A DNA stretch of 64,000 nucleotides, taken from contig CP070705.1 of NCBI GenBank assembly GCA_020349965.1, positions 340,936 through 404,935 of the forward strand, written 5' to 3'. Under the pieces are notes generated by a model that saw nothing but the letters and a program-made list of their open reading frames with translations, was not told where the DNA came from and did not search any database. This document shows positions 9,635 to 38,453 of the stretch, piece by piece (positions within the stretch are counted from its first letter, which is position 1; each line of letters begins with the position of its first letter). A program made the translations under genes and the position numbers. Source of the stretch: Caldifarciminota bacterium (GTDB lineage: Bacteria; Hydrothermota; Tepidihabitantia; SM23-42).

Positions 9635-11275
9635 TCAATCGTACTTGATGTGGAGGTCTTTCAGCTGTTCCGGTGATACCGTATCCGGAATACCTTCGAG
9701 CAATCCCTGTGCCGTTGTCGTCTTTGGAAAAGCGATGACATCCCTGAGCGACTTCACTCCGGCGAGAATCATGACTATGCGGTCAATACCCGGAGCAATG
9801 CCTCCATGCGGCGGCGCACCATAGTGGAGTGCGTCGAGCAGCATAGTATATTTGGCTGGGTCCATACCAGCTATGGCGAACAATTTCTCCTGTAATCGGC
9901 GGTCATGATTCCTTATGCTGCCTGAAGCGAGTTCATTACCGTTGCAGACGAGATCGTAAAGTCGGCCGTGAACACGCAGCGGATGAGAATCAAGATACTG
10001 AATGTCACCTTCTTGGGGCTGCGTGAATATATGATGGCTGGCTACTATCCTGCCCGTTTTTTCATCGAGTTCAAATATCGGAAAATCGGTCACCCACAGG
10101 AATCTGAAGCCGGATTCGGCAAGATTGAGTTCCTCAGCAAGATCAATCCTGAGTTGACCGAGAAATCTGAATACTTCAGCTCCTCCTGCAGCAACAATAA
10201 GCAAATTACCCTTACGCAGCGACAATGCATCGATGATCTTTCTATCTATCAGTTTCCCCATACTGCCGGTACAACTTTCATCTACCCTCGTCCAGAATAT
10301 TCCGGTTAGACCGGCCTTCTTAGCCCTTTCGTCGATCGCGTCGAGTTTCTTCCGCGACAATGCACTGCCCTCTTCAACAATCAGTCCGCGAATGTATTGC
10401 TTTCCTCTAAATGGGGCGAATTCCTTCTCTTTGAACGTGTCGCCGAGATCAATGATTTCCATGCCGAAACGCAAATCCGGTTTGTCAGTACCGTATCGCT
10501 CCATCGCTTTCGCATACGTCATTCGCGGGAACGGTGTCGTGAGAACCTGCTCCATCACGCTCTTGAAGATATGCTCGAACATCCCTTCAGCGATGCCGAA
10601 CACGTCGTCCTCTTCGACGAACGACATCTCTATGTCTATTTGGGTGTGCTCAGGCTGACGATCATGCCTCGGATCTTCATCACGCATGCAGCGGGCAATC
10701 TGATAATACCGCTCAAACCCAGCAACCATCAACAATTGTTTGTACATCTGCGGTGACTGGGCTAACGCATAGAATTTCTCAGGATATAACCTTGAAGGGA
10801 CGAGGTAATCTCTTGCCCCTTCAGGCATGCTCCGGGTCAGGACCGGTGTTTCGATTTCCATAAAATCATGCTTGTTCAGATATTCTCGCATTGCAGTAAT
10901 GACATTGTGGCGGAATATTAGGTTGCGCTGCATCGGCGCCCTCCTCAGGTCGAGGTAGCGATAACGCAAACGCAGCTCTTCGCTGGCCTTGACATCACTC
11001 TCCACGACGAATGGCGGGGTCCTGGATTTATTGAGTACTGTAAATTCCTCAACGCGCAGTTCGACATCTCCTGTATCTATTTTAGGGTTCTTTTGCTTCT
11101 CGGGGCGCTCGCGTACCTCCCCTTTTGCGCGAATACAATCCTGCATGCTGAGACTTTTTGCGCCGGTCATCGTCGGTTCTATTACGAGCTGCAGCACACC
11201 ACTTCGATCCCTCAGATCCGCGAATATCGTTCCGCCGAGATTTCTGATACGGTCAATCCAACCGTAGACTGTCAC
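9635..11275 (-). CDS. aspS: Aspartyl-tRNA synthetase
   Basis: AspS charges tRNA-Asp. The 546-residue frame has the OB-fold anticodon-binding domain (GWIDRIRNLGG, FADLRDRSG), class II motif 2 (RDEDPRHDRQPEHTQ) of the bacterial type with an inserted GAD-like region, and motif 3 (GIAPGIDRIVM). The annotated GTG start removes about 18 residues that look like part of the OB fold. The frame stays open upstream past the glyS stop, but no ATG, GTG or TTG is available there. Identity is certain; the start is not. It follows glyS in the same operon. Whether it is discriminating or charges tRNA-Asn too cannot be decided here. Confidence 0.95.
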   Translation of the reverse strand: MTVYGWIDRIRNLGGTIFADLRDRSGVLQLVIEPTMTGAKSLSMQDCIRAKGEVRERPEKQKNPKIDTGDVELRVEEFTVLNKSRTPPFVVESDVKASEELRLRYRYLDLRRAPMQRNLIFRHNVITAMREYLNKHDFMEIETPVLTRSMPEGARDYLVPSRLYPEKFYALAQSPQMYKQLLMVAGFERYYQIARCMRDEDPRHDRQPEHTQIDIEMSFVEEDDVFGIAEGMFEHIFKSVMEQVLTTPFPRMTYAKAMERYGTDKPDLRFGMEIIDLGDTFKEKEFAPFRGKQYIRGLIVEEGSALSRKKLDAIDERAKKAGLTGIFWTRVDESCTGSMGKLIDRKIIDALSLRKGNLLIVAAGGAEVFRFLGQLRIDLAEELNLAESGFRFLWVTDFPIFELDEKTGRIVASHHIFTQPQEGDIQYLDSHPLRVHGRLYDLVCNGNELASGSIRNHDRRLQEKLFAIAGMDPAKYTMLLDALHYGAPPHGGIAPGIDRIVMILAGVKSLRDVIAFPKTTTAQGLLEGIPDTVSPEQLKDLHIKYD

Positions 11276-32803: not shown

Positions 32804-34120
32804 ATGAACAGACATGTCACGAGACCCAGGGCATTGCTCGTCAATCCGTGGATCTATGATTTCAAGGCTTTCGACTTCTGGAACAAACCGGTCGGGCTGC
32901 TCATCCTTTCAAGTCTGCTAAGAAAGTTCGGATTTGAATTAGATTTCATTGACTGCATGGACCGCCTGAGTCCGCACTATACCACTAACACAAGAACAGA
33001 TATGTGGGGACGCGGCAAGTATCACTCCGAAGAAGTCGACAGACCGAAGATCCTCAAGGTTGTTCCCCGACGGTACAAGCGGTACGGCATACCACGTGAA
33101 ATATTTGCCCATGCCGTTCGAGATCTCACAATACCTGATTTCATTTTCATTACGTCATCGATGACATATTGGTACCAGGGCGTATTCGAGGCGATAAGAA
33201 TACTGCGCCAAACATTCCCCCACGCGCACATAGTACTCGGCGGCATCTATGCCACGCTCTGCAAAAGACATGCAAGAAAATTTTCAGGAGCCGATACGAT
33301 AATTGCAGGTGCGGTCGAAGAACACATTCCTGAATTGACCGCGGCACTTGGACTGTTGCCAGGACCGCACACTATGCCATATGCATTTGCATCCGATTAT
33401 TCACTCTATGAAAAACTGCGATACGCTGTTACTCTCACGTCGCGCGGTTGTCCTCTTAACTGCACCTACTGTGCAACAAAAGTACTGTGCGGCGGATTTA
33501 CCACTGCTTCGGTTGACACTGTCATCTCACAGATAGATACTATTCAGAGAAAAACCAATAACATCGCTTTCTTCGACGATGCTTTGCTATACAATGAATC
33601 ATTCCCCGAATTGCTGAGAACAATCATCGACAAGAAATACCATCTTGACCTCCATGCGTCGAACGGTTTACATTGCAGGTACATCACGGAAGAAATCGCC
33701 CGGCTCATGTTTGAGGCGAACTTCAAGACCATTTACCTCAGCCTGGAAACGACCAATCCTGTTGTTCAACAGCAGACAGGCGGCAAGGTGAACACCGACG
33801 AATTCAGAAAAGCCGTCAAACTCCTCACCAAGACTGGCTTCACCCCGAATCAAATACATGCGTACATACTCTATGGCATGCCCGGACAGGGGTATGATGA
33901 GATCATCGATTCGATCAAGCTGTGCCGCGACCTCAGGGTAAACCCGCACCTATGCGAATTTTCACCGATCCCGCATACCGTTGAATATCACAAGACCGGT
34001 TTCGACGAAGACACAGACCCTTTACACCATAACAACCTTTTCTATACATGGTATTATCCTGAACCGAAAACCGACCTGTACAAGAGAATCAAGGGCTATC
34101 TTTCTCAGGCGCACCGTTGA
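32804..34120 (+). CDS. B12-binding-domain radical SAM protein
   Basis: The 438-residue protein has an N-terminal cobalamin-binding-like Rossmann domain (LLILSSLLRKFGFELDFIDC, IVLGGIYATL) followed by a radical SAM barrel. The Fe-S motif CxxxCxxC is at Cys216, Cys220 and Cys223 (RGCPLNCTYC). The arrangement is that of the large family of B12-type radical SAM enzymes (methylases and related). The substrate cannot be predicted. The gene starts 14 bp after the glycerate kinase stop and converges on the Cys-repeat operon, so a role with that operon is only a possibility. Confidence 0.82.
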   Translation: MNRHVTRPRALLVNPWIYDFKAFDFWNKPVGLLILSSLLRKFGFELDFIDCMDRLSPHYTTNTRTDMWGRGKYHSEEVDRPKILKVVPRRYKRYGIPREIFAHAVRDLTIPDFIFITSSMTYWYQGVFEAIRILRQTFPHAHIVLGGIYATLCKRHARKFSGADTIIAGAVEEHIPELTAALGLLPGPHTMPYAFASDYSLYEKLRYAVTLTSRGCPLNCTYCATKVLCGGFTTASVDTVISQIDTIQRKTNNIAFFDDALLYNESFPELLRTIIDKKYHLDLHASNGLHCRYITEEIARLMFEANFKTIYLSLETTNPVVQQQTGGKVNTDEFRKAVKLLTKTGFTPNQIHAYILYGMPGQGYDEIIDSIKLCRDLRVNPHLCEFSPIPHTVEYHKTGFDEDTDPLHHNNLFYTWYYPEPKTDLYKRIKGYLSQAHR

Positions 34121-34157: not shown

Positions 34158-35066
34158 TCAGCGTAGGTTCTTGGCTATCCTGATGCCCTGTCTCAGTATA
34201 TACTCCCGCATTTTCTCGTCCGTATGATACCCGGAAGTCTTCGTTGTTGTTTGGCGGAGCACAATAACATCAACTTCCTTTGTCTTCTTCTGTTCCACTG
34301 TCAGCTTGTCCAGGTCCGACTTCAGTCCTTTGAATTTCTTGAATAGACCGAATTCAGGACGGGCGATGATAACAACATAGAAATACGGAAAACTGCGGGA
34401 TTTGACCGTATTGATCGAAATTTGCCCCTGCAATCCAATGAATGCGTCGGGTGCGTCCCTGAATTTGATCAGAACCCTCGCATCGTTGGGAAAAGTTCCC
34501 TGTGCTGCACTGCCCATCTCGAGAAATGGCATCGCTTGCAGGCCAGGATCACCTTTTATCATATCTGAATCGAGTATATTCATCGTTATCTCTGCTTTGA
34601 TGTCGAGGGAGTTGGGCATCCAAGCGCTCTTTCGGCCGCTCAAGATCAATCCCCCAAAAAGAACAAACGCATTCACTATCGTTGCTATGAGAGGAAAGGG
34701 CAGCGAAATCTCCTCGAAAATCGGGAAGAGGAAACCCCCGAAAAAGATGACCGCGATCACCAATGCGATAAAACAACCGATATTCTGTTTACGGAATTTC
34801 TTTATTCTTTCACAGTGCTCCAATACGTGTTTGATCTTCTGCGGGGTCACATCTTGCCACTGCAGATCGGCGGCGGCCACCCTCTTGACCGAAATGCCTC
34901 TTATTAGATTCAGCAATACGCAAAGAATGATGAAAGGCATGCCCGCAAGAATATTGTGCGTGCTGAGCTGAAGCAGGAATCCGGAAACGATCAGCACCGC
35001 CGATACGGCGCTTCGCACCCTGGACCCGATCTTATCGAGTATCAAATAAGCACGAAAATCTTCCAT
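34158..35066 (-). CDS. Four-helix membrane protein of the Cys-repeat operon
   Basis: I do not recognise this 302-residue protein. It has two pairs of hydrophobic segments (about residues 20-37, 41-58, 97-116 and 121-142) and a soluble C-terminal half (150-302) with beta strands, ending in a Lys-rich amphipathic stretch. GAGGGGAAATAG precedes its ATG. The first 35 nt overlap the end of the radical SAM/SPASM gene, so it is translationally linked to it. A role as membrane partner, transporter-like component or sensor is inference. Confidence 0.7.
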   Translation of the reverse strand: MEDFRAYLILDKIGSRVRSAVSAVLIVSGFLLQLSTHNILAGMPFIILCVLLNLIRGISVKRVAAADLQWQDVTPQKIKHVLEHCERIKKFRKQNIGCFIALVIAVIFFGGFLFPIFEEISLPFPLIATIVNAFVLFGGLILSGRKSAWMPNSLDIKAEITMNILDSDMIKGDPGLQAMPFLEMGSAAQGTFPNDARVLIKFRDAPDAFIGLQGQISINTVKSRSFPYFYVVIIARPEFGLFKKFKGLKSDLDKLTVEQKKTKEVDVIVLRQTTTKTSGYHTDEKMREYILRQGIRIAKNLR

Positions 35067-36462
35067 CTATTTCCCCTCTGCCGCAGGCTTGCCAATACAA
35101 TGGACAGGCACCCCGACACACAGTATAATCATCACATTGTAGACATTCGGTCGGTGCGTACTCTCCATGTTTGTAGTAATCTAACCCGTCTGACTGCCAG
35201 ATTTCATCGAAGTTGCTCTTCAAGAGAGAACCGACGGGCTGGCGCCATGAAGAACACGGAATTATATTTCCCGTTGGATCGATGCTCAGTAAGCCGGTTA
35301 TTGCAGCGCATGCCTTGTTGCCCAGACCACTGGCAATAGGATTGAACATACATAACGGCACAGGTGAATACCACAAAAACCTGACATCTTGCTCTTCGGC
35401 AAACCTTTTTATGTCAATAATATGGTCGCCGATCTCTGAATAAGATGTCCACAAATCTTCTCTACTGCCCGCGCGACCACACGGTATGAGTAAGTTCATT
35501 GATAACCGATTGAGCCCAAGACATTTAGCAAGCACGACGATCTCCTTCGCATACGCGATATTATGCCGTGACAGTGTTGTATTGGTATGAACGGGGATGC
35601 CGGCATCTCTCAATGACGCTATCCCCCGGGTCGACGCGTCAAAGGCCCCCTGTTTTCCAGTGATCATGTCGTGAATCTCGCTATTTGGACCTTCGATGCT
35701 TACCTGGGCGCTCGAGAGGCCGGCCTTCTTCAAGGACCGAACAGTGTCATCATAGAGCAGCGTCCCGTTTGTTATGAGATTCGTCCAAAGGCCGATCTGC
35801 GCCGCATATGAGATCAATTTTGCGATATCCTCACGCAATAGTGGTTCGCCACCAGTGAAGCTGACCGACGGAACCTTTGCTTCGTGATAGATCTTGAAGA
35901 GAATCTTCTTGAGATCGTTGGTGCTCAATTCTCTGCCGCAGTGGTCACCTACGTAACAAAACTCACACGCCAGATTACACCGGTAGGTCACTGCAACCTC
36001 TGATAGAATTGGGTATACGTTCAAATTGTCAGAGAACTCATGGTAATCGACCGCGTTGCGCTTTTCATTATCACGCAGGCAACCCTTCATTATCGCCCTC
36101 AGGTCACAGAAGAAATAGTGAATATCCCTGCGCTTATTCTCATCATTACCCACTCTTAAGAGCAGGTCAGTGATCGTATGGCCACTCAACAGATAACTCA
36201 TGATCTCGATTCCAGATTCGTTCAATCCGTATACTTGATTGGGAACGAGGATGAGGAGCCGGTCAATCTTCCTTACGCATACGTAGGGTCTGATCTTGCA
36301 GATAAAATCGTCCACCCACCCCAAATCAAACTCCCTCATTGAATCCATAGCCAGGTCAGTTAATCCGTAATTTTCCGTTTCCCAAATTACCTTATGTACC
36401 TTAAGTAATTTAGGAATCTTCTCTTTTAGAAGATTGCTCAGAATGGGCATTCGAATTTTCAT
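35032..36462 (-). CDS. Radical SAM/SPASM maturase with N-terminal PqqD-like domain
   Basis: The ATG at 36462 is preferred over longer upstream starts: GGAGG lies 7-8 nt upstream and it overlaps the previous stop as TGATG. The extra upstream residues are only a shadow of the Cys-repeat DNA. The 476 residues contain a PqqD/RRE-like domain (about 61-131: VPNQVYGLNESGIEIMSYLL). The radical SAM motif CNLACEFC follows (Cys162, Cys166, Cys169). The glycine loop is SFTGGEPLLR, and a SPASM domain has eight Cys from about residue 395 on. Such enzymes install thioethers, C-C links or epimers in ribosomal peptides. The natural substrate candidate is the Cys-rich tail encoded immediately upstream. Confidence 0.88.
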   Translation of the reverse strand: MKIRMPILSNLLKEKIPKLLKVHKVIWETENYGLTDLAMDSMREFDLGWVDDFICKIRPYVCVRKIDRLLILVPNQVYGLNESGIEIMSYLLSGHTITDLLLRVGNDENKRRDIHYFFCDLRAIMKGCLRDNEKRNAVDYHEFSDNLNVYPILSEVAVTYRCNLACEFCYVGDHCGRELSTNDLKKILFKIYHEAKVPSVSFTGGEPLLREDIAKLISYAAQIGLWTNLITNGTLLYDDTVRSLKKAGLSSAQVSIEGPNSEIHDMITGKQGAFDASTRGIASLRDAGIPVHTNTTLSRHNIAYAKEIVVLAKCLGLNRLSMNLLIPCGRAGSREDLWTSYSEIGDHIIDIKRFAEEQDVRFLWYSPVPLCMFNPIASGLGNKACAAITGLLSIDPTGNIIPCSSWRQPVGSLLKSNFDEIWQSDGLDYYKHGEYAPTECLQCDDYTVCRGACPLYWQACGRGEIDGRFSCLFDTR

Positions 36463-37973
36463 CAGTGCGCTCCTCCACTCACGCAAGCTGAATGACAAGC
36501 CGAGTGACAGGCCGAATGACACGCCGAATGACACGCCGAATGGCAGGCCGAATGGCAGGCGTCATGGCACGCGGTATGAACATAGCACGCACTATGGCAG
36601 GCATCAGACCGCACAAACGCGGCATAATTCCTTATCGGTCCACCATATGCAACAAATGCCCTCTCGGTCTGGGCATAGTATCTACGCCTCCCAAAATCGC
36701 GTCCCATGAGGTAGTCATAGTAGTCTTTCTTGTCGTACTCGGCATCGATCGCTTTGTCAGGCGACGGTGCACCGATCTTTTCGGTATAATAAGATCTTGT
36801 CGCATCCAGATCGCAATCCCACGCCTTCGCTGAAAGATTCTCGACCACCTGAGTAACGAGCGATTTCAATGCTGCCTCGTCCATCGAGCCATCCGGTCTA
36901 ATCGCATCACAGAAAGCGCTCTCGTAGTAGCGGAGGCCAGGTGGTCTCTGCAGTATCTTGATCCTCAAGGGCACTTGCGACGTAATCTCGACTATTCCAT
37001 TCTCAGAGAGATTGGTGGCCAGTATCGTTAAGATCTTGTTGACCGGATAGTCAAGGAGCAGGGCTGCTTCGATCAAATCCAGTTTGGCAACCTTGCCTGA
37101 TTTCCGAAACGTGGCAACTTCTATCTTCGGCGGCACCCAATCATTCCTCAGCCACTGGAGACCTGCAACATCACTATACGCGCCTTTTATGTTGCGTGCT
37201 TTGCGATTAGAGTAGAAAAGATAGGGAATGACGTACAGCACCATATAAAGCAATTCATAAGGAAACGAAAATCCTTTCCCTTCTTCAGGGGTTGTCCGAA
37301 TCTTGCCGAACCGGTCCGTCCTGAAATATCCCGCTGGCACATACTGTTGCATCAACATCTTCTCGCGGGTCGCCAGGTCATTCCGGTGAAGGCGTACCGC
37401 AAAGTAATATTCACCCGCGTACTCCTGGCCAAAGTAGGAAATCAAATACCTTTCGTTCATGAACCTTTCTGTCCGGAATCCATAATCATCCGGATTCACG
37501 ATCTCTCCGGGTACCTGTATCGGATAGTAGACCAGCACGGTGTAGTGTTCAAGTGGCTCGTCCCACTGAGGCGGCGACCAGTGTAGCACCACTAAGTCGC
37601 CATATTCACTGGGCGTCGTTTCCAGATTTCTGCTTCTCGCAAGGTCTCCGCCATAATGCAAAACATACGTGATCTCACCCGGACCAAACGCTTGACCCCT
37701 TGCCAGGAGGATGTCGTATTTATCGCCGAGGTCCTTTATCTCTAATGAATATCGCTCGCCATACGCATCGACTGCATAAGATTCCTCATAGTCAAAATAG
37801 GGTTCGACCGAAATACCCTGGAGGTAGAAACCATGCATAGAACCTGATAGTACTTCATACCTTATTTTGTACACAAAATCTGCGCGACCATCCTGCCACA
37901 ATGATACATCGACTTCCACCCAGCGCAGGTCAGCCGACACTGCCAACAACGCCATCAGAATCAAATCAACCAT
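36462..37973 (-). CDS. Membrane protein with tandem His-Ser-Ala-Cys repeat tail
   Basis: This 503-residue protein has a signal peptide (first 14 residues), a beta-rich exported domain (about 15-230), one clear membrane helix (about 235-254), a cytoplasmic domain (about 275-455) and a 48-residue tail with ten Cys. In the tail six consecutive units read His-Ser-Ala-Cys, preceded by three looser units. The exported domain plus helix plus cytoplasmic domain with a low-complexity tail resembles DUF2207-type membrane proteins. Only two other Cys occur outside the tail. The stop overlaps the start of the radical SAM/SPASM gene. I infer that the tail is a modification substrate or metal-binding element; function is unknown. 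Confidence 0.85.
   Translation of the reverse strand: MVDLILMALLAVSADLRWVEVDVSLWQDGRADFVYKIRYEVLSGSMHGFYLQGISVEPYFDYEESYAVDAYGERYSLEIKDLGDKYDILLARGQAFGPGEITYVLHYGGDLARSRNLETTPSEYGDLVVLHWSPPQWDEPLEHYTVLVYYPIQVPGEIVNPDDYGFRTERFMNERYLISYFGQEYAGEYYFAVRLHRNDLATREKMLMQQYVPAGYFRTDRFGKIRTTPEEGKGFSFPYELLYMVLYVIPYLFYSNRKARNIKGAYSDVAGLQWLRNDWVPPKIEVATFRKSGKVAKLDLIEAALLLDYPVNKILTILATNLSENGIVEITSQVPLRIKILQRPPGLRYYESAFCDAIRPDGSMDEAALKSLVTQVVENLSAKAWDCDLDATRSYYTEKIGAPSPDKAIDAEYDKKDYYDYLMGRDFGRRRYYAQTERAFVAYGGPIRNYAAFVRSDACHSACYVHTACHDACHSACHSACHSACHSACHSACHSACVSGGAH
36477..36605 (-). repeat. 12-bp tandem repeat coding for the Cys/His tail
   Basis: Units of 12 bp (Cys-His-Ser-Ala in frame) run from the codons for Asp-Ala-Cys near 36605 to Val-Ser-Gly near 36477. 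Third positions vary between units (tgc/tgt, gcc/gcg/gct, tcg/tca/agt, cat/cac) while the amino acids stay fixed. That pattern points to selection on the protein rather than to recent slippage alone. Confidence 0.9.
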
Positions 37974-38018: not shown

Positions 38019-38408
38019 CTATTCTCTCGACGCTTCTGCTCTTGCCCTGAGAAGATCGGCCTGGGCAGCAATGAAAGCTGCATACGCCTCTTTGGCATCG
38101 GCCCAGCATGTCTCGTCCGGGAACGATGCCACGATCCCCTGCCAGACGATCTTGTAGACCTTCTCGAGTACCTCTTTTGAAGGTCCCTTCCCCGTCTGCT
38201 CGAACTGGGCCACAACAGGCACCGGCTGAAAGACCGGCGCGGGTCCGGCAACGATATCGGTCTGTGCACCAAGAAAAACGACACCCATATTCTCGATGAC
38301 ATCGATATGTATCTTAATAGCATTCAAGACTGAAGCGATCGAGAAATCTGCTGTCGAAAACTTCATGAGCAGAGTATTACCTTTAATCTCCCCATAGGGT
38401 AAATTCAT
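38019..38408 (-). CDS. Small protein leading the Cys-repeat operon
   Basis: The frame can begin at 38411 or 38408 (tandem ATG after AGGAGGT); the second gives normal spacing and a 129-residue product. I do not recognise it. The N-terminal part is beta/alpha (LPYGEIKGNTLLMKFS), the middle is Pro/Val-rich (VAGPAPVFQPVPVV) and the C-terminal third is a long helix rich in Ala (AKEAYAAFIAAQADLLRARA). No signal peptide. It is 45 bp upstream of the Cys-repeat gene and downstream of a good promoter. Confidence 0.65.
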   Translation of the reverse strand: MNLPYGEIKGNTLLMKFSTADFSIASVLNAIKIHIDVIENMGVVFLGAQTDIVAGPAPVFQPVPVVAQFEQTGKGPSKEVLEKVYKIVWQGIVASFPDETCWADAKEAYAAFIAAQADLLRARAEASRE

Positions 38409-38425
38409 CATACCTCCTTTTTCTG

Positions 38426-38453
38426 ATTGTATACAGATTGGCACTTGTGTCAA
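38426..38453 (-). promoter_or_regulatory. Promoter for the Cys-repeat/radical SAM operon
   Basis: TTGACA (38453-38448), 16 nt, TACAAT (38431-38426), followed by AGGAGG ahead of the 129-residue gene. Four same-strand genes follow with small gaps or overlaps. The same TTGACA-16-TACAAT arrangement precedes the barrel gene at 51368. Confidence 0.65.

Follow-up and report, generated by a model that had tools for sequence, protein, structure and literature searches.

What is a membrane protein doing with a C-terminal tail made of regularly spaced cysteines and histidines? The window (the whole stretch of 64,000 nucleotides that was analysed) encodes a protein of 503 residues whose C-terminus, in the translation of the ORF 36462-37973, reads ...RSDACHSACYVHTACHDACHSACHSACHSACHSACHSACHSACVSGGAH. 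According to the original prediction such a tail is either a substrate of post-translational modification or a metal-binding polymer. The tail gene lies in a group of genes on the minus strand, with the following features.

38426..38453, minus strand: sigma-70-like promoter, TTGACA-N16-TACAAT (11/12), directly upstream of gene 1; called from the consensus match alone
38019..38411, minus strand: gene 1, small protein of about 130 aa
36462..37973, minus strand: Cys/His-tail protein, DUF2207-like membrane protein of 503 aa (ORF translation)
36462..36608, minus strand: tail, residues 456-503 and the stop, SDACHSACYVHTACHDAC(HSAC)6VSGGAH
36470..36476, minus strand: GGAGGAG inside the SGG codons of the tail, inferred from the sequence to be the Shine-Dalgarno-like site of the radical SAM gene
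35032..36462, minus strand: radical SAM/SPASM enzyme of 476 aa with an N-terminal PqqD-like RRE (about residues 48-126)
34158..35066, minus strand: gene 4, membrane protein of 302 aa, its start overlapping the end of the radical SAM gene

The tail and the protein that carries it

Recounting confirmed the claimed Cys, ten within the final 48 residues, mostly at every fourth position, and two in the rest of the protein; the HSAC unit occurs seven times in the protein, and six of these units are in tandem, in agreement with the six identical units described. The array is where it was first placed (36462-36605), but that span covers 47 residues and the stop and is therefore, trivially, one codon short. 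Over the full 64 kb three tandem-array rows were obtained, of which two are the HSAC array; its units match one another at only 84-89%.

DUF2207 is a widespread family of unknown function, and the 503-aa protein is probably a divergent member of it. The Pfam model PF09972 scored 20.4 bits against the protein, the gathering score being 24.4, while a homologue from the same genus (G003) scored 27.9 bits, which is above the cut-off. The structure model (mean pLDDT 64, with a confident N-terminal beta-sandwich and a low-confidence tail) has the layout of the DUF2207 type, i.e. a beta-sandwich (about residues 13-213), one TM helix (about 240-262), a winged-helix-like region (about 300-340), helices (349-400), a linker and the low-complexity tail. 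The modelled N-domain resembles the N-domains of Ost1 and of M1 aminopeptidase (best Z 15.7, rmsd 3.0, 183 residues aligned); no solved structure for the core was found by sequence search. The S. mutans protein SMU.243 (DUF2207, PF09972) is built alike, with an extracytoplasmic domain, a TM segment and a cytosolic low-complexity C-terminus (PMC10457818). Since an extracellular N-terminus and an intracellular Gly/Ser-rich C-terminus are predicted for DUF2207 proteins (PMC10457818), and since a positive cluster, RKARNIKG, follows the TM helix, the C-terminus including the tail probably lies on the cytosolic side. The tail had been described as attached to a membrane-embedded domain; the attachment to the membrane holds, but in the model a single TM helix separates extracytoplasmic and cytosolic domains, so that the word embedded goes too far.

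Ordinary DUF2207 tails are Gly/Ser-rich and free of Cys, in contrast to the Cys/His repeat found here. From the same phylum 17 ordinary DUF2207 ORFs were read: not a single Cys was present in their last 60 residues, and all finish in Gly-rich runs (e.g. SGGGGGGGGGGGW) but one, which is a partial read. None of the 17 genomes holding these ORFs contained the radical SAM/SPASM enzyme at the threshold used. Thus, a Cys tail appears to have replaced the Gly-rich one in a single branch of the DUF2207 family. One genome with the tail, G002, holds an additional DUF2207 protein. A link to 5-thiohistidine was also considered and dropped, as one paper has DUF2207 beside OvoA, yet reports no functional link.

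A second type of tail, CACACACAGCACACAGGGR, was found on distant DUF2207 relatives which also adjoin paralogous radical SAM/SPASM enzymes (type 2, the tail of the window being type 1). It has Cys at every second residue, no His and a GGGR end, and SSSGGGCACACACAGCACACAGGGR or a close variant forms the tail of these relatives, which come from six genomes of WOR-3 and one of Planctomycetota. The second-tail loci are L022, L044-L049, L063, L064, L066, L102, L106 and L107; at five type-2 loci a small membrane protein precedes, which carries a zinc-ribbon-like CxxC pair and ends in EEAPKW or EEEPKW.

The second type bears directly on the metal-binding alternative, in which the tail would mainly be a polymer binding Zn, Cu, Fe or Fe-S, and the enzyme would introduce a small change or help in cluster assembly. 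The ten Cys and ten His within 48 residues fit such a polymer. In a helix the Cys and His spaced i,i+4 would form stripes drifting by 40 degrees per repeat (at 100 degrees per residue), and the model, at low confidence, does show the tail as a helix. However, the type-2 tail lacks this spacing and has no His and still adjoins a paralogous enzyme, so the common feature of the two systems is Cys together with the enzyme, not the Cys/His spacing; furthermore, the cassette conserves neither a metal transporter nor a regulator (28 loci). We consider a mainly metal-binding tail unlikely, although a tail serving purely as an unmodified metal ligand could be invariant as well.

Conservation of the tail and of its gene cassette

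The 45-residue block ACHSACYVHTACHDAC(HSAC)6VSGGA is letter-identical in 22 WOR-3 genomes, and outside the tail the identity of the protein goes down to 36% among WOR-3 relatives. In the 29-codon repeat part 9-21 codons differ from those of the window across the other loci. Since the residues are identical while the codons vary, the amino acids of the tail are held by selection, and chance or DNA slippage as the origin of the tail was ruled out on the same grounds. Homologues with the tail were found in 13 of the 392 Planctomycetota genomes sampled (two of the 13 being rows of the query alignment) and in 3 of the 288 sampled from Verrucomicrobiota (one of the 3 being such a row); their tails consist of 6-9 CHxA units followed by C[VH]SGG, one tail being split across contigs. 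Contigs were scanned once, with core patterns, and further phyla may carry the system. By sequence, the Cys-His-Ser-Ala tail is thus near letter-for-letter alike in three bacterial phyla. Among family-level homologues the same domain was not seen at this locus without the tail, the exceptions being contig ends and broken frames.

Matches to the tail alone, in G059 (L050), G395 (L085) and the IMG/VR contigs L069-L072, had neither core nor enzyme and were judged frame coincidences in repetitive DNA. In L069 (4983-5267), L070 (4983-5180) and L071 (2546-2743) the open frame consists of SACHSAC repeats interrupted by SKHNAY and has no core domain, probably a repetitive-DNA coincidence. The short frames of CHFA repeats in L085 (1417-1776) and of CHDA/YDSA repeats in L050 (1372-1809) were assigned to repetitive DNA as well.

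All 28 loci with wider context have the tail protein and the enzyme side by side. The enzyme gene follows the tail gene, except at the type-2 locus L102, where the enzyme is upstream; at L095 a long fused reading frame obscures the order. Gene 4 comes next in every type-1 locus whose contig continues (21 loci). Its C-terminal motif RQxTTxxSGYHT is conserved, in the form RQxTTxTSGYHT in the window and at L029, L057, L091, L096, L103 and L105, and so is a second one, QGQxSINxVQG...YPYFY. Gene 1 (MNLPYGEI...FSTADFSIASVL...AQADLLRAR), with 53-82% identity between relatives (window, L057, L058, L093 and L108), lies upstream of the tail gene in WOR-3 relatives and at one Planctomycetota locus (L093). 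No Pfam or NCBIfam family matched gene 1, no recognised family was found for gene 4, and neither gave a significant match to solved structures by sequence. The promoter-like site upstream of gene 1 should be read with the background in mind, as such sites are no commoner in the region than in shuffles. A B12-binding radical SAM protein, weakly like PhpK-type P-methyltransferases, adjoins the cassette (32804-34120, plus strand); its gene is absent from the conserved neighbours.

Out of 147 genomes of the WOR-3 phylum, 29 hold both the tail protein and the enzyme (23 of type 1 and 6 of type 2) and none holds the tail protein without the enzyme. The enzyme alone was detected in two, both times at a contig end: in G021 the contig starts within the tail, and in G014 the enzyme is truncated at the contig edge. 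The co-occurrence is strong (Fisher p 1e-28, related genomes being non-independent), and core, enzyme and gene 4 are correlated in their pairwise distances (r 0.87-0.92). The enzyme seemed to be missing beside the tail in G003 and G007, but there an N-run assembly gap lies in the gene, pieces of which are present elsewhere in the assembly. In the complete WOR-3 MAG chromosomes CP070802 and CP070686 an N-run in the radical SAM gene right behind the tail is joined to unrelated sequence; the N-run gaps at L027 (about 9680-9800) and L028 (about 9660-9780) are likely scaffolding errors.

The neighbouring radical SAM/SPASM enzyme

The stop codon of the tail gene and the ATG of the enzyme gene overlap (TGATG), and the Shine-Dalgarno-like GGAGGA of the latter falls in the conserved SGG codons of the tail. 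This site as the sole cause of the conserved SGG is an insufficient explanation, since G318 uses GGCGGC and the type-2 tails end in GGGR. The Radical_SAM and SPASM models of Pfam both matched 20 of 20 enzyme relatives, and the PqqD model (PF05402) matched 7 of the 20. Invariant in these relatives are C162, C166 and C169 of the CxxxCxxC motif and the SPASM cysteines C385, C403, C440, C443, C449 and C453. The enzyme model (mean pLDDT 81.8) has an RRE-like N-domain of beta3-alpha3 fold and could be superposed, RRE included, on SkfB (Z 28.8, rmsd 3.9, 337 residues aligned) and SuiB (Z 27.0, rmsd 3.9, 377 aligned), and with its catalytic part on the sactipeptide enzyme 5why (Z 24.8, rmsd 3.2, 289 aligned). 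SkfB is also the closest solved relative by sequence, the alignment running through the RRE; matches of an RRE-only profile to the PqqD/TfuB1 structures were non-significant. Among the NCBIfam radical SAM equivalogs the best 25 of 93 weak matches were all far below their cut-offs (e.g. 155 of 500). The predicted architecture of the enzyme is RRE-rSAM-SPASM.

RRE-dependent radical SAM maturation is mostly known from free, diversifying peptides that are released. The architecture is shared with SkfB, CteB, PapB, the SCIFF maturases and SuiB, in whose systems a Cys-rich substrate gene likewise adjoins that of the enzyme. This resemblance to sactipeptide and ranthipeptide enzymes is what speaks for a secreted RiPP precursor, in which the tail would be the core, cleaved off and exported, and the DUF2207 protein an outsized leader. 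Here, however, the candidate substrate is the C-terminus of a membrane protein of about 500 residues, the core, far from being diversified, is invariant across phyla, and the predicted topology places it in the cytosol. Unlike in the sactipeptide and ranthipeptide systems, no protease and no exporter or transporter is conserved in the cassette (28 loci), although one acting in trans is possible. A secreted peptide is accordingly improbable in our judgement.

Other known systems offer partial parallels. QhpD, which introduces three thioethers from Cys to Asp/Glu in a protein subunit (PMC7876137), is a radical SAM enzyme stapling the Cys of a working subunit, QhpC, and not of a secreted peptide (PMC7876137); QhpC differs in its cleaved N-terminal leader and periplasmic location, and the tail here is C-terminal, on a membrane protein, and is accompanied by an enzyme of a different family. 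TvgB acts on the repeated TVGG motif of TvgA (PMC9062424) in poly-cyclopropylglycine formation and thus provides a case of a radical SAM enzyme iterating over a tandem tetrapeptide (PMC9062424), but with another motif, a free peptide and C-C bonds. TIGR04117 (Syntroph_Cxxx), a predicted radical SAM target, also has Cys at every fourth residue; its 98-position model has no DUF2207 domain, and it scored 17.1 bits against a cut-off of 50, through the repeat part (model positions 59-97 of 98). Literature on DUF2207 with radical SAM, on CXXX repeats with radical SAM or on TIGR04117 was not found in a search that covered mostly sources outside subscription journals.

Proposed modification of the tail and its meaning

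The tail is the likely substrate since it adjoins an RRE-bearing radical SAM/SPASM enzyme, has taken the place of a Cys-free Gly-rich tail and was never found without the enzyme; of the two alternatives in the original prediction, it is thus the modification substrate that gains support. That the enzyme acts on the tail appears highly probable to us. Another target could be imagined, either elsewhere in the DUF2207 protein, e.g. the conserved KAWDCDLDAT segment, whose WDCD (385-388) is invariant across the tail-protein family, or in a different protein, the tail then being independent of the enzyme. Such a target is very improbable, as the type-2 proteins read have no WDCD, yet keep both a Cys tail and a paralogous enzyme, and as the Cys-free DUF2207 tails occur in genomes without such an enzyme at the threshold used.

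With the tail as substrate, we propose that the conserved operon yields a membrane-anchored protein modified by the radical SAM enzyme. The DUF2207-like protein would be held by its one TM helix with the C-terminus in the cytosol, and the enzyme would dock through its RRE on the C-terminal region and work repeatedly along the CHSA array. The Cys sulfurs would most likely be joined to carbons of nearby residues, giving thioether staples of -2 Da each. SkfB-like enzymes, PapB and QhpD form thioethers from Cys, and by this analogy the likeliest chemistry is a serial formation of thioethers, with about even odds of being the right one. The acceptors would differ from those of PapB, which are Asp/Glu at +4 and are missing from the CHSA repeat; an acceptor of that kind is impossible, since the +4 residue in CHSA is Cys.

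Three points argue for a product working in place: the tail is invariant, neither a protease nor an exporter is conserved, and the protein is anchored in the membrane. We regard retention of the product at the membrane as somewhat favoured. At the inner face of the membrane the stiffened, sulfur-rich tail would then function as a fixed element, and our best guess is a role that is either structural or redox/cofactor-like; the gene 4 protein would probably be a partner in the membrane. To the proposal as a whole, i.e. a membrane-anchored protein with a tail serially modified by the radical SAM enzyme and a product that is retained, we assign a probability of roughly 0.6.

These results point to an undescribed membrane-anchored modified protein and not to a secreted peptide. 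A far-reaching and rather doubtful extension would see here a protein-derived cofactor or conductor of a new kind, in which an invariant Cys/His repeat, stapled by the enzyme in three phyla, forms a rod anchored in the membrane, with CACACACAGCACACAGGGR as a second version on related membrane proteins. The tandem array would offer a simple read-out for iterative radical chemistry. The DUF2207 family gains a branch that is predicted to be chemically modified, with a testable pair of enzyme and substrate, and the fixed, invariant tail of a membrane protein as the likely target in three phyla suggests a housekeeping, structural or redox role.
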